Part shown: in pieces, positions 15,936-21,935 of the stretch
Layout of the letters: each line of letters opens with the position of its first letter
How positions within the stretch are numbered: position 1 is the stretch's first letter
DNA from: Diphasiastrum complanatum
Taxonomy: Eukaryota; Streptophyta; Lycopodiopsida; Lycopodiales; Lycopodiaceae
NCBI GenBank assembly: GCA_029204225.1
Contig: CM055106.1
Location: 48,249,337-48,313,336, forward strand
DNA length: 64,000 nucleotides
Direction of reading: 5' to 3'
Notes under the pieces: model-generated
Databases searched by the model: none
The model's input: only the letters and a program-made list of their open reading frames with translations
What the model was told of the DNA's origin: nothing
Made by a program: the position numbers and the translations under genes

Positions 15936-17641
15936 ATGGGTTCAATTGGAGCCTATCTTCTTGAGACTAGTGAACGGCTAAATTCTAATAATTATTCAAC
16001 TTGGAAAGTAAGAATGGAGTCACTAGTTGTGCTCCAAGATATGTTTGATCTTGTCATAGGAGAGGAAGAAGAACCTCAAGGAGGGCAAGATCAAGTGAGG
16101 TACAAAAAGAGAGCTAGACTAGCATTAAATTGCTTGAAAATGAATGTTAGTAATGAACTTCTAAAGGAAGTGGCATCCTATACCTCGGCCAAGGAGGCAT
16201 GGAACTACCTCAAAGGGATTTATGAATCCAAAAATAGCTCTAGAGTGCTTATGATTAGAAACAAAGTTCTTCAAAGCATTAGAGGGAGTGATGAGAGTGC
16301 TCAAGAGTATGTCTTGAGAGTAAAATCTCTCAACAAAGAACTTTCCATCATTAGTGAGGGTATTCATGATGATGAACTTGTTCAAATCATTTTGAATGGT
16401 CTTGGAGATGAGTTCTCCAATCTTGTACAAAGCTTTGCTATTCAAGATGCACTACCTTCCATTGACAAGCTCCATAGTGTGCTTGTGGCCGAGGAGAGTA
16501 GGATCCTTCATGTCAAGCAAAGGATTTGATCCTTAAAGTTGCATGATGGTGATGAGAAGGCCAACTTCTCAAGCAAGGGAAAGGAAAAGTCAAAGAAGAA
16601 GATCCAACACAAGGAGACCAAGAATGATGATCACCCATCAAGCTCCAAAGGTGGAAAGAAGAACAAAGCCAAACTCAAGTGCTTCTTTTGTGGAAAGACG
16701 AAGAATGCACAAGGAGAGAGCAAACAAGACAACCTCACTCTTGAGGAAGATGAGGATGAAGTGGATTCATCCTTGATGTCTTCTACATCAACATCAAAGA
16801 GCTACTCCAATGACACATGGTGGATTGATAGTGGGGCTAGTTCCCACATGACATTCCAAAAGGATTTTTTCTCAACTCTTGTACCTTTTGTAGGTTGTAA
16901 AAAGTCTATTCTAACAACAAGTGATCAAGAATGTAGAATAGATGGAGTGGGAACTATTCCCTTAAGTCTTGGATCCTCTAAAAGAGTAGATCTTGATAAT
17001 GTACTCTATGTTCCTACACTCACTAAGAATTTGTTAAGCGTAGGACAATTGATGGATGATGGCTTAGATGTCCATTTAAAGCATGGTGTTTTCTCCATAA
17101 TGATGAATAATACTTGCATTGTAAAGGGATTCAAGCAAGGAAGGCTTTTTAAGCTTGATGCTAATGTTTTTTCTGGAAGTGTGGACATGGTGAAGGAGAG
17201 CTCAATCAAGTGGAGCTTTGGCGTAAGAGGCTGGGCCCCCCAACTTCAAATCTATGGAGATGCTATGCACCAAGGATCTTGCTCTCGGCCTTCCAAAGAC
17301 ACTCTCAAAGTGTGGAGAAAGTTGTGAAACTTGTAGCCTCTCAAAGGCACACAAGCTACCTTTTGATATCTCTTCCACTAGATCTACAAAAGCATTAGAT
17401 CTTATTCATAGTGATGTGCACTCTTTTCTCAAGAATCTAATGGAGGTGCATCTATGTATGTATCTTTATTGATGATTACTCTAGATACACTTGGATTGAA
17501 CTTTTGGATTCCAAAATTAAAGTGTTTGAAGCTTTTGTTAAGTTCAAAGAAGTGATAGTGGTGGAGAGTATATCTCCACCAAGATGATAGAGTTTTGTAA
17601 ATCCAATGGCATTAAGAGAGAACTTACATGTACTTATAGGC
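15936..17641 (+). pseudogene. Copia-E gag, protease and partial integrase
   Basis: Gag begins MGSIGAYLLETSERL (15936; the Met at 15912 is less likely because the related Copia-A gag starts at the matching place). It reads openly for about 197 codons to a TGA at 16527. The frame resumes to a Lys-rich stretch and a truncated zinc knuckle: CFFCGK is present but the His and final Cys are missing. The protease signature WWIDSGASSHMT lies near 16820. The GAG-pre-integrase region is shifted in frame near 17205-17250 and the integrase start (DLIHSDVHS, FIDDYSRYTW) follows. The element ends abruptly near 17641 inside the integrase core. Reverse transcriptase and RNase H are absent. Confidence 0.85.
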
Positions 17642-17892
17642 CTGCTTGTAGTCCATCCCGATGTTAGACAATATCTTTCGTGTCTCATCTCTTGTCTCAG
17701 GCATGACATTCCCTTCTGGGAGAATTTTGTTTTTCAATAGTCTGTACATGACAAAAGAAGTCATTGTAAAAAAAATATCACTCGATGTCCAAATTGTAAA
17801 TTTTGTTTCGAAGCAAAAATGACAAGTAGATGAATTTTTTTTTACTCAAATAATGATGTGAGGCTTTGGTCACTCCATCTATATTTGAAGAT
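17642..17892. other. junction sequence, no gene seen
   Basis: Follows the broken Copia-E integrase. No protein or known repeat recognised; the left end of the 17.9-21.7 kb composite is somewhere here but no terminal inverted repeat or target duplication could be identified. Confidence 0.3.
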
Positions 17893-18144
17893 TTAATAGA
17901 AGTAGAGAAGTCGCCAAACGAGATGTCTTTGCTCCAAGATACAATGCGCTCTTTGATTCTTCTCGAAATTTTCTTTCTTCTTTAGACAAAAGTGCCTCCT
18001 CATCTTGTTCATTGTGTCTAGCTGAATATTGTTCTCGTACATATCATCCAACATGTCTCCCATGACTTCAAATTTATCATTCATTGGAAGATCTAGATGA
18101 GCTAGATTCAGATGCATTAGTCTCTTGATTAATGCGCTCATCAA
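17893..18144 (-). other. unrecognised 83-codon ORF (minus)
   Basis: An open minus-strand frame, Met- and Asn-rich, with a predicted helical, charged middle (about 50 residues). It overlaps the last codons of the Arg-rich exon at 18077-18279 in another frame. It could be a further exon, or 3' untranslated sequence of that gene that happens to be open. No family recognised. Confidence 0.25.
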
Positions 18145-18279
18145 TTTCCATCATCTCTTTTAAGCCTTGATGTAGACGACGAGGTAATTGCTTTATATGT
18201 GTACCGTTGTATTGCATTCGTCGTCTACGTCGACCATTACAAGGATTATTGTCTCCAACACTAAATGAGGTGAAGAATC
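18077..18279 (-). pseudogene. probable 3' exon of the SET-domain gene
   Basis: Minus-strand exon-like segment. It is preceded by a splice-acceptor-like TTTTGATATATAG and reads openly to a TGA at 18077-18079. The product has a run of five arginines, then basic and acidic stretches, and ends in a Ser-rich tail. In phase 2 it can be joined to the SET ORF (18603-18902) through weak donor-like GT sites near the end of that ORF. It is therefore inferred to be the C-terminal tail of the SET protein. The join is inference and no homology was recognised. Confidence 0.4.
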
Positions 18280-18305
18280 CTATATATCAAAATAACAAGA
18301 AGTAG

Positions 18306-18357
18306 GTTGAAACAATGTTTGATAAACATTTCCTCCCAATACTTGATAGATCTAAAT
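18306..18357 (-). repeat. duplicated piece of the SET C-terminal exon
   Basis: Similar to 18651-18698 in the same orientation, sharing the words ggttgaaac, ttgat-aaca, tcctccc and cttgatagatct or close variants. On the minus strand it would encode a degenerate version of the SET end block (E-E-x-F-I-K). The 345-bp spacing suggests a local partial duplication. Confidence 0.6.
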
Positions 18358-18602
18358 GTTGCATATGAATATAAATTACCTCTTAGTTTAAAAAGTATGA
18401 ACATACCAATGTATCTATTAGACAGATTTGTCTTTTCAACTTGTTAACATTCAATGAACTCAAAGACGAATAATGCTCCTAACATTTAATCTAGACAAAT
18501 GACGAATAATGCTCCTAACATTTGACATATTTAATGACACAAACCAAATACAATCAAGATGAATGGATTATACATCTCTACATATCAACAAAATTTAAAT
18601 TT

Positions 18603-19480
18603 TCACATTTGACTTATTGTCTTTTGCAAGCATTTGGGTAGAGGATGGTTGAAACTATACTTGATGAACAATTCCTCCCCAAACCTGATAGATCTAGTGG
18701 CACAGACCATTACATAAGTGCCCTTTACATTCCTAGTAACATATTCTTCTTTTCCATTGGTGCGTTCTTCAAAATCACAATTCGTCAATAGAGGGCCCTT
18801 GAGATGTTGCCTCCTTGCATGCGTTGCTCCTCTAAAGAACAAGCATTTGCATTCAAGCCATATACTTGCATCCTCCATTGGTGATGACACAAAGCATGCC
18901 AATCACCCCAATTGTATTGAGGTCCTACATATGGCATCAATGTCACAACACTATTTAAAGGGACCTCAATACTACTCAATGCAAAAAGGCCCAAACCAGC
19001 CTCAGGAAAGTGTTCACTAGGCATGATCATGTACATTCGACCCCAATACGTAAATGGTGTTCCACATAATGGTAATGGTGATTGGAGTGGCCAACACGAA
19101 TATCTACTTCTAATAAAAGTTTTTACTAATGGTTGCAAGCTAGGTGGAAGAGGAAGGTCAGACAAAGAACCTAGAATGTCTTTTGACACATCAACAGTGC
19201 GTAGTAATTTGCAATTATTTTTCAAACTAGTCATAATACGTCCAAGACGTGTTCTCTTTTTTAAAGGGGTGGCCAAGTTTGTGGAATCCACGTGGAGTAT
19301 CGTGGAGGACTCATGTGCAACATCTAGGATAGGTGTGGTTGGGTGGTAAGAACGTTCTAGAGATTTGGAGACATGGATTGAATCACAAGGCATTGATGAA
19401 CTAATTATATCATGCAAGGGATTCTCGATCTCTCTTGCAACTCTTTTTCTTAAAACCAACTTATGGTCCTTCTTCTGCAA
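18603..19480 (-). pseudogene. SET-domain protein (lysine methyltransferase-like) fragment
   Basis: Two overlapping minus-strand frames together make one SET-like domain. The first (19480-18785) has a 130-residue basic N-terminal part, then GLGLFALSSIEV and VVTLMPYVG, matching the opening strands of SET domains (GxGxFA, then V-x-x-Y-x-G). The second (18902-18603) supplies an NCDFE block and ATRSIRFGEELFIKYSF, matching the closing TRDI-x-x-GEEL-x-x-x-Y strand. Reading must shift by one frame near 18800, so the copy is probably broken. The NHSCxPN motif typical of active SET enzymes is not recognisable. The upstream edge at 19478 looks like a splice acceptor, so earlier exons are missing. SET enzymes methylate protein lysines; activity here is doubtful. 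Confidence 0.6.
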
Positions 19481-20417
19481 AAGTTGAAAATGCGTGTAGT
19501 GTGTATTATGATCTTAATCCACGTGGTGGAGTTATAAAAAATACGCGTGGCAATGTAGTTTATGCCCGTTTGCATGATTTAGTTGCTTTAGATTACATGT
19601 TCGATTGGTCCTCCCAATCGCTTGAAGACAAAAATAAAATAATAGAGACTTTGTATTCTGAATTCCCTCAATCCAATGCTTTTAGTAGGACTTGGGCCTT
19701 GAATACAATGTGCCTTTGGATTTGAAACAAAAGGCAATTGATGAGAAGAGCCGTGAGGAATCCCAAGAATCCACAAAGCCTGGATGGTGCTCCAAAAGGG
19801 ATTGGAGGAAGGTGAAAGGGGAATTGTTGCAAAACAATCCCCAAAAGTATGAACAACAACGTAGAGCCACCGCCGAGAAGCTCTTAAAACATGGCCAAAG
19901 TCACTTGGGATTGAGAAGAAGGGGCAATCTAGAGGCCCAATTTGTAAGTGCAATATTTTTTAATATGATTCTATTTTTGTAGTGAGATTGTTAATGTTTT
20001 TTATTGCTAAACTATATTGTATTGCTAAACTATGTTTTTTTTGTTGAAGGTAGCTTAGTGATTTTGGAAGACACATGACCGCCGCAGAGTACAAGCAAGG
20101 CTACGATCATGGATATGCTGACCTTAAGGCTTTTATGGAATCCCATGGATTGTTTCCAATCGTAAACTCTTAACCTGTATTGTTTTGTGATTGTTTACTT
20201 TGTGGTTTACAAGTAAGTTTAATCTCAATTTAATTAAATCTTTGATTCTATTTTGTAGAGAGGCTCTACAACTTCAAGTCTTCGTGATGTGGAAGAGAAT
20301 GTGGAAGAGAACATGGAAGAGTACGTGAATGAGAGCGAAGGGGAGTTTGAAGATGTGGACACCAACGTACACCTACAAGATCAAGGAGGCGAGGAGGGAG
20401 GAAGTGATGATGAGTAG
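19435..20417 (+). pseudogene. multi-exon transposon-accessory-like gene (Transposase_24/TNP1-like), fragment
   Basis: The plus strand shows three exon-like parts. The first, about 19480-19943, has LHDLVALDYMFDW followed by a helix pair, then KPGWCSKRDWRKVKG and a HGQSHLGLRRRG block. The second, 20054-20161, includes AAEYKQGYDHGYADL. The third, 20259-20417, is very acidic and ends at a TAG. The introns at 19944-20053 and 20162-20258 are GT-AG and both keep phase 0. The layout (DW motif, W-R-K helix, H-x-x-G-x-x-S block, coiled acidic tail) resembles the plant En/Spm-associated Transposase_24 family, whose products can bind element ends. A frameshift near 19690 separates the first 80 codons from the rest, and the 5' exons are missing. 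No catalytic DDE transposase is visible. The family call is tentative. Confidence 0.5.
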
Positions 20418-21170
20418 AGGTTTTTAAATTAAATGTAAGGCCTTGTAGAAGGCAATGTAGGAAGAGAGAATTTATTCTCTCATCAATGTACTTGTTTTTA
20501 AATCAATTAATATGATGTTTTGGCATCACATCATTCTTGCAAAATTTTTGAATGCATATATCTTTAATCCATGAATGCAAATGTATAGTCTATTGAATGC
20601 ACATCTATTGATTGCAAATGTATCTATTGATGTATTCAATGCAATGTATAGTCTATTTAATGCACATCTATGCAATGCAAATGTATCCATTGATGAATTC
20701 AATGCAATGTATCACATGATTTGCATGCTAGAATGCACAATAAAAAGTAATGGAAATAGATAACACATTAAGTTATCAACTAAATATTGAATGAATCAAA
20801 ATAAATGTGAATTTACCTTTACTATTGTATCTCCATTGTTTTGCAATTTTTGCTTTTCCTTTTGCATGCACTTGATCTTTGAATCCTTTGCAATGAAAGC
20901 TCATTTTTCATTTTTCATATCCAAACCTACATCACAAACAAAAAAGATCCTAAAACTTATGATCACAAAACACATACTATTAACATCCATCAATGAACTA
21001 AAAATCCTAAACACTATCAATCTTCTCACTCACATTCATCCTCATCTCATTCTCACTCCCATCTATACTCTCTTTTTCTCTCTCTCACACAACACAAAAA
21101 TAGAAAGTCACCTCTAGTTTCGGAGCGAACCACATTTTGGTTCGCGCCAAATGTTTTTTTTGGACAAAAA
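20418..21170. other. no gene; 3' flank of the transposon-like gene
   Basis: AT-rich sequence without credible coding potential; short open frames are chance. Contains the 64-bp tandem repeat listed separately and, near 21060-21090, a CT-rich stretch. Confidence 0.5.
20578..20704 (+). repeat. 64-bp tandem repeat, two copies
   Basis: Units 20578-20641 and 20642-20704 share tgtatagtctatt-aatgcacatctat and tgcaaatgtat-cattgatg-attcaatg with few differences. Within each unit the word tgcaaatgtat recurs, suggesting an older half-unit duplication. Confidence 0.8.
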
Positions 21171-21670
21171 ATTTTGCTTGGATTATCCACGCGTGGATAA
21201 TCCACACAAATTCTAGAAACCTTTCCGCGTGGATACCGTGTGGATATAAAAAAAAATTTATCCACGTGGTATCCATGACCTCAATTCTCTGGATTTTGCA
21301 TGGATAAAGCGAATTTAGCGTGGATAATCCACGCCTGGATAATTATCCACGCAGTATCCACGCGAAAGCCGAGCCTTTTTTATTTAATTTTTACTATGGC
21401 GTGGATTATCTACGCGTGGATTATCCACACAAAATTAGAATTCCTATTTCTGGCTTCGAGTGTCGGAGGTTTGCCCGGCTGTCAGTAGTTGAACTTGGCA
21501 TGGATAATCCACGCGTGGATAATCCACGCATTTTGAATTTCATGACATCCGGCCGATCTGCTGCCGGAAAAGACATTTGCGTGGAACATCCACGCATGGA
21601 TAATCCACGCGTATATCCACGCCAATCCGCGACTATATCCATGCAAATTTTTTTTGCCCGCGCGTCCTCC
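21171..21670. repeat. palindromic GCGTGGAT/ATCCACGC array
   Basis: About 500 bases holding roughly 20 copies of the 8-mer GCGTGGAT or its complement ATCCACGC, many joined as the perfect palindromes GCGTGGATAATCCACGC and ATTATCCACGCGTGGATAAT (for example 21179-21206, 21319-21364, 21398-21430, 21497-21531, 21579-21625). Copies differ by single substitutions (CATGGAT, GTGTGGAT). Clustered short inverted repeats near an end are typical of subterminal binding sites in En/Spm-like DNA transposons, where an accessory protein binds. Here the array lies about 750 bases downstream of the Transposase_24-like gene. Confidence 0.85.
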
Positions 21671-21935
21671 TTTGTATTGTGTGTGGATATTTACTATATG
21701 TGTTCTTGTGCCTAACCAAGTTGCAGATGCTCTTAGTTGAATTGGTGCATCAAATGAACTTTCATTCACCCATATTTCCACTTATCTATATCTTTCATTG
21801 AGAGGAACGCACTTGGAAAATGGTTGAGATTGGAAGAGAGATTAACTCATAGGGATCTCAGAATCCTAAGAAAGATAAAAATATTGTTGAATAGTTTTTC
21901 ATTCGAGGTGGTTTTCTATTTCGAAATGGAAAGTT
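21671..21935. other. no gene; right edge of composite
   Basis: No protein recognised. The word TTGCAGATGCTCTTAG at about 21721-21736 is reminiscent of terminal sequences of plant DNA transposons (GAGCATCT type when reversed), but no matching left end was found. Confidence 0.3.

Follow-up and report, generated by a model that had tools for sequence, protein, structure and literature searches.

A block of a 64,000-nucleotide stretch of the Diphasiastrum complanatum genome (the window) is, judged by its sequence, a shortened, non-autonomous copy of a high-copy DNA transposon family of the EnSpm/CACTA type. It was previously predicted that a SET-domain gene, a spliced plus-strand gene and a palindrome array, lying at 17893..21670 between two copia remnants, could form one En/Spm-like element. 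We found that SET and transposase genes co-occur in many copies with fixed order and spacing, in support of one element, though the termini start with CACAA and not CACTA. Copia remnants were present on both flanks, and the block is better bounded at 17643-21710, where a terminus, a GCGTGGAT array, a TnpA-like gene, the SET gene and the first tnp2 exons remain (Table 1). The family architecture proposed here, with SET as a functional gene of the element, appears very probable.

Table 1. Parts of the transposon copy in the window.
Feature	Position	Strand	Basis
Left terminus	21690..21710	-	CACAAGAACACATATAGTAAA read inward on minus strand
Subterminal array, GCGTGGAT/ATCCACGC palindromes	21170..21689		CGTGGAT count
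TnpA-like accessory gene, spliced	19493..20418	+	DNA alignment to L034/L035
Deletion junction	19492..19493		Alignment to L034: 3,427 bp absent from window
SET-domain gene, broken	18606..19492	-	Alignment to L034 and L035; relatives match PF00856
tnp2 (Transposase_21) first exons	17643..18271	-	92% DNA identity to L035 and protein match

Alignment of the window copy with the relative L034 showed that 3,427, 78 and 76 bp are missing. The TnpA-like and SET genes abut at 19492/19493 because the 3,427-bp internal deletion joined two opposed genes. The suspected fusion of two halves was thus borne out and the junction, predicted at about 19480, is real, but its exon-like edge proved to be a deletion scar. 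GT-AG was absent at the edges of all three deletions, and splice products were therefore rejected as an explanation of the two halves. Within the SET gene, alignments to L034 and L035 placed an in-frame 78-bp deletion at 19420/19421 and a frame-shifting 76-bp deletion at 18795/18796, the latter taking out a portion of the SET core. At 17643 the far end of the element is truncated by a copia fragment, the right end is lost, and copia pieces are nested throughout the surrounding region. Only the tnp2 exons preceding PF02992 are kept, this domain lying further along in relatives; window positions 18795-17643 are 92% identical to L035 at the DNA level, with a protein match at 17845-18271. As it has neither a full SET, nor a full transposase, nor a right end, the window copy is immobile in its present form. 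It has a duplicate on contig C3395.

The SET piece is real but damaged. Alone it scored 16.5 bits, below the PF00856 cut-off of 22.4, and it aligned with family copies above this cut-off (35 bits in L021 and 28.4 bits in L035); all 9 aligned family members matched PF00856 at E<=1 (best 7.4e-9). Active SET lysine methyltransferases are defined by an NHSC.PN core motif, and G-L-G, tyrosine and G-E-E-L motifs also have roles in SET domains. NHSC.PN was not found in the family, which has GNIAAYINSSIGHP..TNC, while GNVGRFINHSCSPN or close variants occurred in 4 of 5 host proteins compared. Since the canonical NHS reads N-S-S or N-C-S in the family copies read, the protein may have a changed methyltransferase activity or none. 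The G-L-G, Y214, G-E-E-L and Y330 columns were invariant in our alignment (A1). A search for SET homologs beyond Diphasiastrum, using a method that needs shared 5-residue words, returned one protein (P0001), whose structure prediction was too low in confidence to use (pLDDT 30.5); PDB searches gave none in one case and one chance match (E=0.57) in another. A SET-tnp2 fusion protein was rejected as the default because all 8 copies examined had a stop codon closing SET itself and no common in-phase donor was seen by eye. From these reading frames, the default is a SET protein separate from tnp2, a spliced fusion being a possible alternative.

Of 249 genome matches to the window SET ORF, the 150 listed were 86-100% identical to it (scoring covered 150 of the 2,553 first-look candidates). 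The original prediction had named two contrary outcomes, that SET and transposase pieces never co-occur and that SET is the edge of a single-copy host gene; what we found was co-occurrence and many SET copies, and the latter rejects the host-gene reading. When 150 listed SET and 150 listed tnp2 places were paired (duplicate places included), SET was upstream on the same strand in all 36 listed pairs within 10 kb, and the spacing was 1.6-2.0 kb in 32 of them (random mean 0.27). For at least 114 of the 150 tnp2 places listed, the listed SET matches included none within 10 kb. Loci L009-L035, of which L009 and L010 fall outside this family, were also compared as 10-kb stretches. The tnp2 N-terminal exon was downstream of SET in 19 of 25 family loci, at a distance of 227-358 bp in 17 of these 19; because several family loci are near-identical pairs, independent loci number fewer than 25.

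The element ends were consistent with this arrangement. Using patterns that presuppose a CACAA start, we detected 214 genome matches to the left-end pattern CACAASAACAYATATRGTAAA with at most one mismatch, compared with 1 for the reversed pattern, and 158 right ends, compared with 0 for the control; a stricter right-end form, VNNCACAACTAAAAAACTCTGTG, gave just 6 genome matches and was too strict. The window left end is an exact match (C15:48271026-48271046), and the palindrome array adjoins it, in agreement with the idea that the array marks the element end. Pairing was based on 100 of the 214 left ends (99, without C3395, for the right-end test) and 100 of the 158 right ends. Left ends and SET formed 24 pairs within 20 kb: in 19 of these, among them the window and its duplicate on C3395, the left end preceded SET with matching orientation, and 5 had another orientation; the random control, 0.47, refers to C1-C8 (C5 size guessed), where 21 of the 24 pairs lie. 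Of 14 pairs of SET and a right end, 13 had SET reading toward that end (9 of the 14 were on control contigs; random 0.27), and left and right ends faced inward in 11 of 13 listed pairs (11 of the 13 were on control contigs; random 0.54), the right-end control covering right ends of C1-C4 and C6-C8. Further inward-facing pairs were C9:43483644-43498330 and C5:70518567-70528936. In a separate pairing on C1-C5, with 51 of 146 SET entries and the listed ends, SET pointed at the end in 10 of 16 near pairs, and the 6 with another orientation were all in a C1 cluster. One 10.7-kb span (C2:22335951-22346612) had both ends and SET; at C4:17258995, a left end was sought at the expected place and none was there. 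The family order, assembled from several copies, is left terminus, GCGTGGAT array, outward TnpA-like gene, about 3.4 kb, SET, tnp2 on the same strand, array, and right terminus (CACAA...TTGTG).

Inverted termini of the form 5'-CAC...GTG-3' were present at the window left end and at right ends in L016/L017, L030, L031, L011 and L029. The terminal pentamer CACTA was absent: the ends read in examined loci start with CACAA, and a search of these loci for CACTA/CACTG terminal pairs gave nothing useful. The two ends of the window subfamily align poorly beyond CACAA, suggesting that the terminal inverted repeat is short or imperfect. L030 and L031 have four further common bases (AATA) past ...TTGTG, and the last terminus base is uncertain by up to 4 bases. 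The predicted palindrome array was evident from 24 occurrences of CGTGGAT in the window versus 2.9 expected, and 16 of these lay at 21185-21621. Such arrays were subterminal at the window left end, and similar ones were found inside the right ends of L016/L017 and L030; in the family they are palindromic, reading GCGTGGAT or GCGTGGCA. PF02992 was matched in L021 (E=3.5e-33 and 1.7e-11) and in L035 (E=4.2e-23, with a second piece at 27.3 bits, slightly below the cut-off of 28.6). The only Pfam matches in six L021 ORFs were SET, Transposase_21 and DUF4218, with no Harbinger transposase beside SET. The family is filed under EnSpm by its predicted tnp2-type transposase and CAC...GTG ends only, and is not CACTA in the literal sense.

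The plus-strand gene was real and spliced, as predicted, but its Transposase_24-like label was not confirmed and is rejected here: PF03004 was matched neither by window ORFs (E<=1) nor by the better L034 and L035 copies (E<=10, in a search where HMMER filters drop most matches with E above 0.1). Other weak Pfam matches of the L034/L035 ORFs resembled chance. None of 29 candidate homologs of the TnpA-like ORF reached E<=1. This is similar to TnpA and Tnp1, which passages of PMC2613891 describe as having no similarity to known families. In the window the gene is transcribed toward the left terminus, has lost its 5' exon and contains one frameshift; its 3' end, at about 20418, was placed by eye. 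Region 19493-20297 is 92-95% identical at the DNA level to L034 and L035, where the frame is open and the gene is arranged with SET as in the window. Unlike these three, L011 has a TnpA-like relative on the same strand as SET.

Between L035 and six loci of a second subfamily (dS about 1.2-1.4), dN/dS was 0.14-0.16 for SET and 0.12-0.27 for the tnp2 core. Another comparison took the 15 of 26 sequences in which the SET frame ran for 200 aa or more without a stop; here SET values against a third subfamily were 0.23-0.26, the median within subfamilies was 0.78 over 45 pairs, and 4 of the 105 pairs lay outside the bands used. Because the between-subfamily values are near those of the transposase core, the element appears to maintain SET as one of its genes.

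We considered how SET came to be in the element. Chance juxtaposition of SET, the TnpA-like gene and the array from different nested repeats might be suspected, as nested copia pieces fill the region and the two genes run in opposite directions; however, order and spacing repeat genome-wide and L034 and L035 share the TnpA-like/SET arrangement of the window. Consistent SET/tnp2 order and end orientation across the genome led us to reject chance nesting, which is extremely improbable. It is also known, from parts of PMC8616336, that CACTA elements capture host gene pieces, and SET could be a functionless passenger acquired by such Pack-CACTA-like transduplication. The near-neutral decay of SET inside subfamilies and the broken window copy fit this idea, but SET has kept its place before tnp2 across subfamilies at the low between-subfamily dN/dS given above, and the same open 347-aa frame, stop-free, was counted by eye in 19 of the 150 listed matches. 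We strongly disfavor chance capture and regard it as very unlikely.

With SET as a maintained gene, several roles may be envisaged. By analogy with known EnSpm biology, Tnp2 would cut and join the element ends and the TnpA-like protein would bind the palindromes, while the SET protein might act on the chromatin of copies of its own element. Among possible roles, SET may quite plausibly keep element copies expressed or mobile against host silencing. More tentatively, this EnSpm lineage of a vascular plant could depend on SET as an essential chromatin protein, which TnpA/Tnp2 would recruit to the GCGTGGAT arrays and which would rewrite histone marks at all copies, thereby aiding the very high copy number. 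It is also possible, to a similarly tentative degree, that SET is non-catalytic, serving the transposition complex as a scaffold or binding component, or that its methylation substrate is a protein other than a histone, for instance the transposase; the replacement of N-H by N-S or N-C in the core motif and the fixed position directly before tnp2 point this way, although the invariant columns noted above argue against it. Self-restraint, in which SET would mark the element's copies for repression and so hold their number down, seems unlikely: repressive marks are the product of many plant SET enzymes, but the family is abundant and, to our knowledge, selection for self-silencing is rare in selfish elements.

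Plant EnSpm/CACTA elements have, according to passages of PMC2613891, a tnp2-type transposase, subterminal arrays, a second gene of unrelated sequence and deletion derivatives. The clubmoss family has these features in common with En/Spm, Tam1 and Tgmt*, the second gene being small, and also the CAC...GTG ends given for EnSpm/CACTA in part of PMC12730594. It differs in having SET before tnp2, CACAA termini, a divergent TnpA-like gene and palindromic GCGTGGAT/GCGTGGCA arrays. In the mostly open-access journal literature searched, we found no EnSpm/CACTA element, and no plant transposon of any kind, described as having a SET gene. Sections of PMC12730594 describe SET histone methyltransferase genes in HarbingerS and MuDR transposons of Phytophthora, TET/JBP as a standing gene of fungal EnSpm and other transposons, with escape from silencing proposed, and, as cited there, an anti-silencing protein of Arabidopsis Vandal (MuDR) elements that acts on their own silencing. 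The Phytophthora elements belong to other transposase superfamilies and other hosts (oomycetes), TET/JBP are dioxygenases and not SET proteins, the likeness being an enzyme on silencing marks as a transposon gene, and Vandal elements are MuDR whereas the clubmoss family is EnSpm-type. We know of no SET domain in Vandal anti-silencing proteins. In primates, SETMAR has SET next to a mariner transposase, as a single host fusion gene and not a mobile family; in contrast, the clubmoss SET has its own stop codon and accompanies a tnp2-type transposase. Transposons with enzymes on silencing marks would make the arms race between element and host chromatin directly testable, here with SET under selection similar to the transposase core and holding its place in long-diverged subfamilies of a lycophyte, an old land-plant lineage. 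Such transposons can inflate SET gene counts in these genomes, and the family explains one annotated Diphasiastrum "hypothetical protein".

The block proved to be a single element, whose remaining part occupies 17643-21710 of the window and whose own reading direction is the window minus strand (see table). The original prediction had proposed one En/Spm-like element with the palindrome array as its end, and both proposals were borne out: we found a fixed order of the SET gene and the tnp2 (Transposase_21) transposase gene, element ends and multi-copy linkage, and the GCGTGGAT array lies directly inside a terminus at 21710 whose pattern had 214 genome matches vs 1 for the reversed control. CGTGGAT copies at 21185-21621 make up 16 of those in the window. 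A copia fragment truncates the element at its tnp2 end (17643), and a second copia was found outside the terminus.

Parts of the window element, and a span of the same genome holding both ends
Feature	Position	Direction	Details
Left terminus	starts 21710	minus	CACAAGAACACATATAGTAAA
Subterminal array	just inside terminus		GCGTGGAT palindromes; 24 CGTGGAT in window vs 2.9 expected
Small spliced gene (TnpA-like)	19493 to ~20418	back toward terminus	
SET-domain gene	19492-18606	element direction (minus)	
tnp2 transposase gene	18271-17643	element direction (minus)	first exons only
Span with both ends and SET match	C2:22335951-22346612		10.7 kb; placed by listed match positions

In the 1.74-Gb genome, the window SET ORF gave 249 matches from the 150 scored of 2,553 first-look candidates. 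Identity to this ORF was 86-100% across the 150 listed matches, 19 of which (counted by eye) had the same 347-aa stop-free open frame. A PF00856 profile search gave 146 matches from the 150 scored of 875 candidates, most of those listed covering the second half of the SET domain alone. Among 27 stretches (L009-L035) taken around SET matches from both searches, all except L009 and L010 belonged to the family (25/27), with at least three subfamilies judged by divergence. The sole protein relative found for SET was O6H91_01G035400 of Diphasiastrum complanatum, annotated "hypothetical protein"; this protein is itself a copy of the transposon's SET, shares 88% identity with L035, and its core motif carries a small deletion. 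An unplaced contig (C3395:8404-9129) carries a SET ORF copy 100% identical to that of the window and an exact terminus copy; it is probably the other haplotype of the window locus.

Downstream of SET on the same strand, L021 has PF02992 (3.5e-33 and 1.7e-11) and also DUF4218, and L035 has PF02992 (4.2e-23). The tnp2 N-terminal exon was so placed in 19 of the 25 family stretches and the PF02992 part in 17; SET and the first tnp2 exon were separated by 227-358 bp in 17 of the 19, and by 663 bp in both members of the L026/L027 pair. Genome-wide, 36 SET/tnp2 pairs within 10 kb (counting duplicate places) were found among the 150 SET places and 150 tnp2 places listed, vs 0.27 expected under random placement. 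All 36 listed pairs had the order SET-tnp2 on one strand, and spacing was 1.6-2.0 kb in 32; the co-occurrence at fixed order and spacing that the original prediction suggested looking for is thus present across copies. At least 114 of the 150 listed tnp2 places had no listed SET nearby, a figure judged on listed SET matches and not a count of SET-less copies.

The ends showed similar linkage. Among listed places, 24 left-end/SET pairs lay within 20 kb, 19 in the expected orientation; 21 of the 24 were on contigs C1-C8, where random placement gives 0.47. In 10 of the 19 correctly oriented listed pairs the left end was 4.4-6.2 kb from SET, a distance that on minus-strand copies includes the SET match length. 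In the window the left end and the SET edge are 2.2 kb apart (2.9 kb by the genome-wide pair measure), a distance that fits once the copy's own 3.4-kb deletion is added. The right terminus of the window's subfamily was read from L017, which matches L035 at 93-94% identity across the tnp2 region; the terminus pattern had 158 genome matches vs 0 for the control. SET was transcribed toward the right end in 13 of 14 listed pairs, and 11 of 13 listed left/right pairs within 35 kb faced inward, 3 of these 11 with a listed SET match inside. On the contigs covered by the random-placement control, where 9 of those 14 SET/right-end pairs and 11 of those 13 left/right pairs lie, 0.27 and 0.54 pairs are expected, respectively. 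In a second subfamily the right ends read CACAACTACAYATATG (258 matches, control 0) and the arrays GCGTGGCA, so the array motif varies by subfamily. The terminal base of the ends was placed to within four bases.

L034 and L035, recovered with the window SET ORF as query, carry both the TnpA-like and SET genes ~3 kb apart. In alignment with L034, three segments are absent from the window copy: 3,427 bp at junction 19492/19493, 78 bp at 19420/19421 and 76 bp at 18795/18796; none of their edges is a splice site. The 76-bp loss causes a frameshift and deletes a portion of the SET core. The two halves do abut, as had been predicted, because the 3,427 bp between them was deleted; the suggested fusion gives way to an internal deletion. 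CACTA elements are reported to yield deletion derivatives (PMC2613891), which the window copy resembles.

Selection on SET was estimated by simple pairwise dN/dS, with non-independent pairs. Comparing L035 with six L021-type loci, two of which are near-identical, gave a SET dN/dS of 0.14-0.16 at dS 1.2-1.4. For L035 against L021-type loci, values were 0.12-0.27 for the tnp2 core, 0.32-0.55 for the tnp2 N-terminus and 0.27-0.54 for DUF4218 (five loci). SET dN/dS was 0.23-0.26 against a third subfamily (L011, L026), and the median was 0.24 for pairs with dS >0.4 (n=56) and 0.78 within subfamilies (45 pairs, dS 0.02-0.15), where single pairs exceed 1. Such a pattern is what a gene required by moving copies, and neutral once landed, should show.

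Fixed order, ends and selection on SET thus characterize a single element. By analogy with known EnSpm biology, Tnp2 would be the transposase and the TnpA-like protein would bind the palindromes. The predicted SET protein may act on chromatin at element copies. Such action, against silencing, is the role we rank most likely, at slightly below even chance. Invariant columns in family SET include G-L-G, Y214, G-E-E-L and Y330, presumably corresponding to SET motifs; the core motif, however, is NSS..HP..TNC vs NHSC.PN in 4 of 5 host proteins, so that methyltransferase activity may have changed or been lost. A non-catalytic protein, or one acting on a non-histone target, is a somewhat less probable reading, and a SET protein that restrains the element appears improbable. 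SET closes with its own stop codon in all 8 copies printed and was therefore treated as a separate protein or alternative exon. In En/Spm, two proteins are reported to be produced through alternative splicing (PMC2613891), and something similar could possibly make SET and tnp2. Known counterparts are the HarbingerS and MuDR families of Phytophthora, in which SET genes occur according to a 2025 study of transposons in fungi (PMC12730594); a literature search of partial coverage turned up no SET gene described for EnSpm/CACTA elements or for any plant transposon.

Several copies have a copia gag/protease fragment upstream of SET, which may be an old insertion inherited within one subfamily: that at L030:2013-2831 is 93% identical to window 16581-17367, and those of L012, L013, L015, L018 and L024 are 80-86% identical to L030. 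At L018:6270-6580 (also in L019), a stretch of ~310 bp similar to the GCGTGGAT array of the window type replaces ~60 bp inside the other subfamily's tnp2 exon, without termini, and looks like filler from gap repair. Of the 65 right ends with the CACAACTACAYATATG pattern listed on C1, 53 fall within a 1.7-Mb mid-contig region (C1:48603447-50267982), perhaps at a centromere, and 44 of these 53 share one orientation. Tandem or segmental duplication accounts for at least part of this cluster's growth, since L011, L028 and L029 have a common flank outside the right end.
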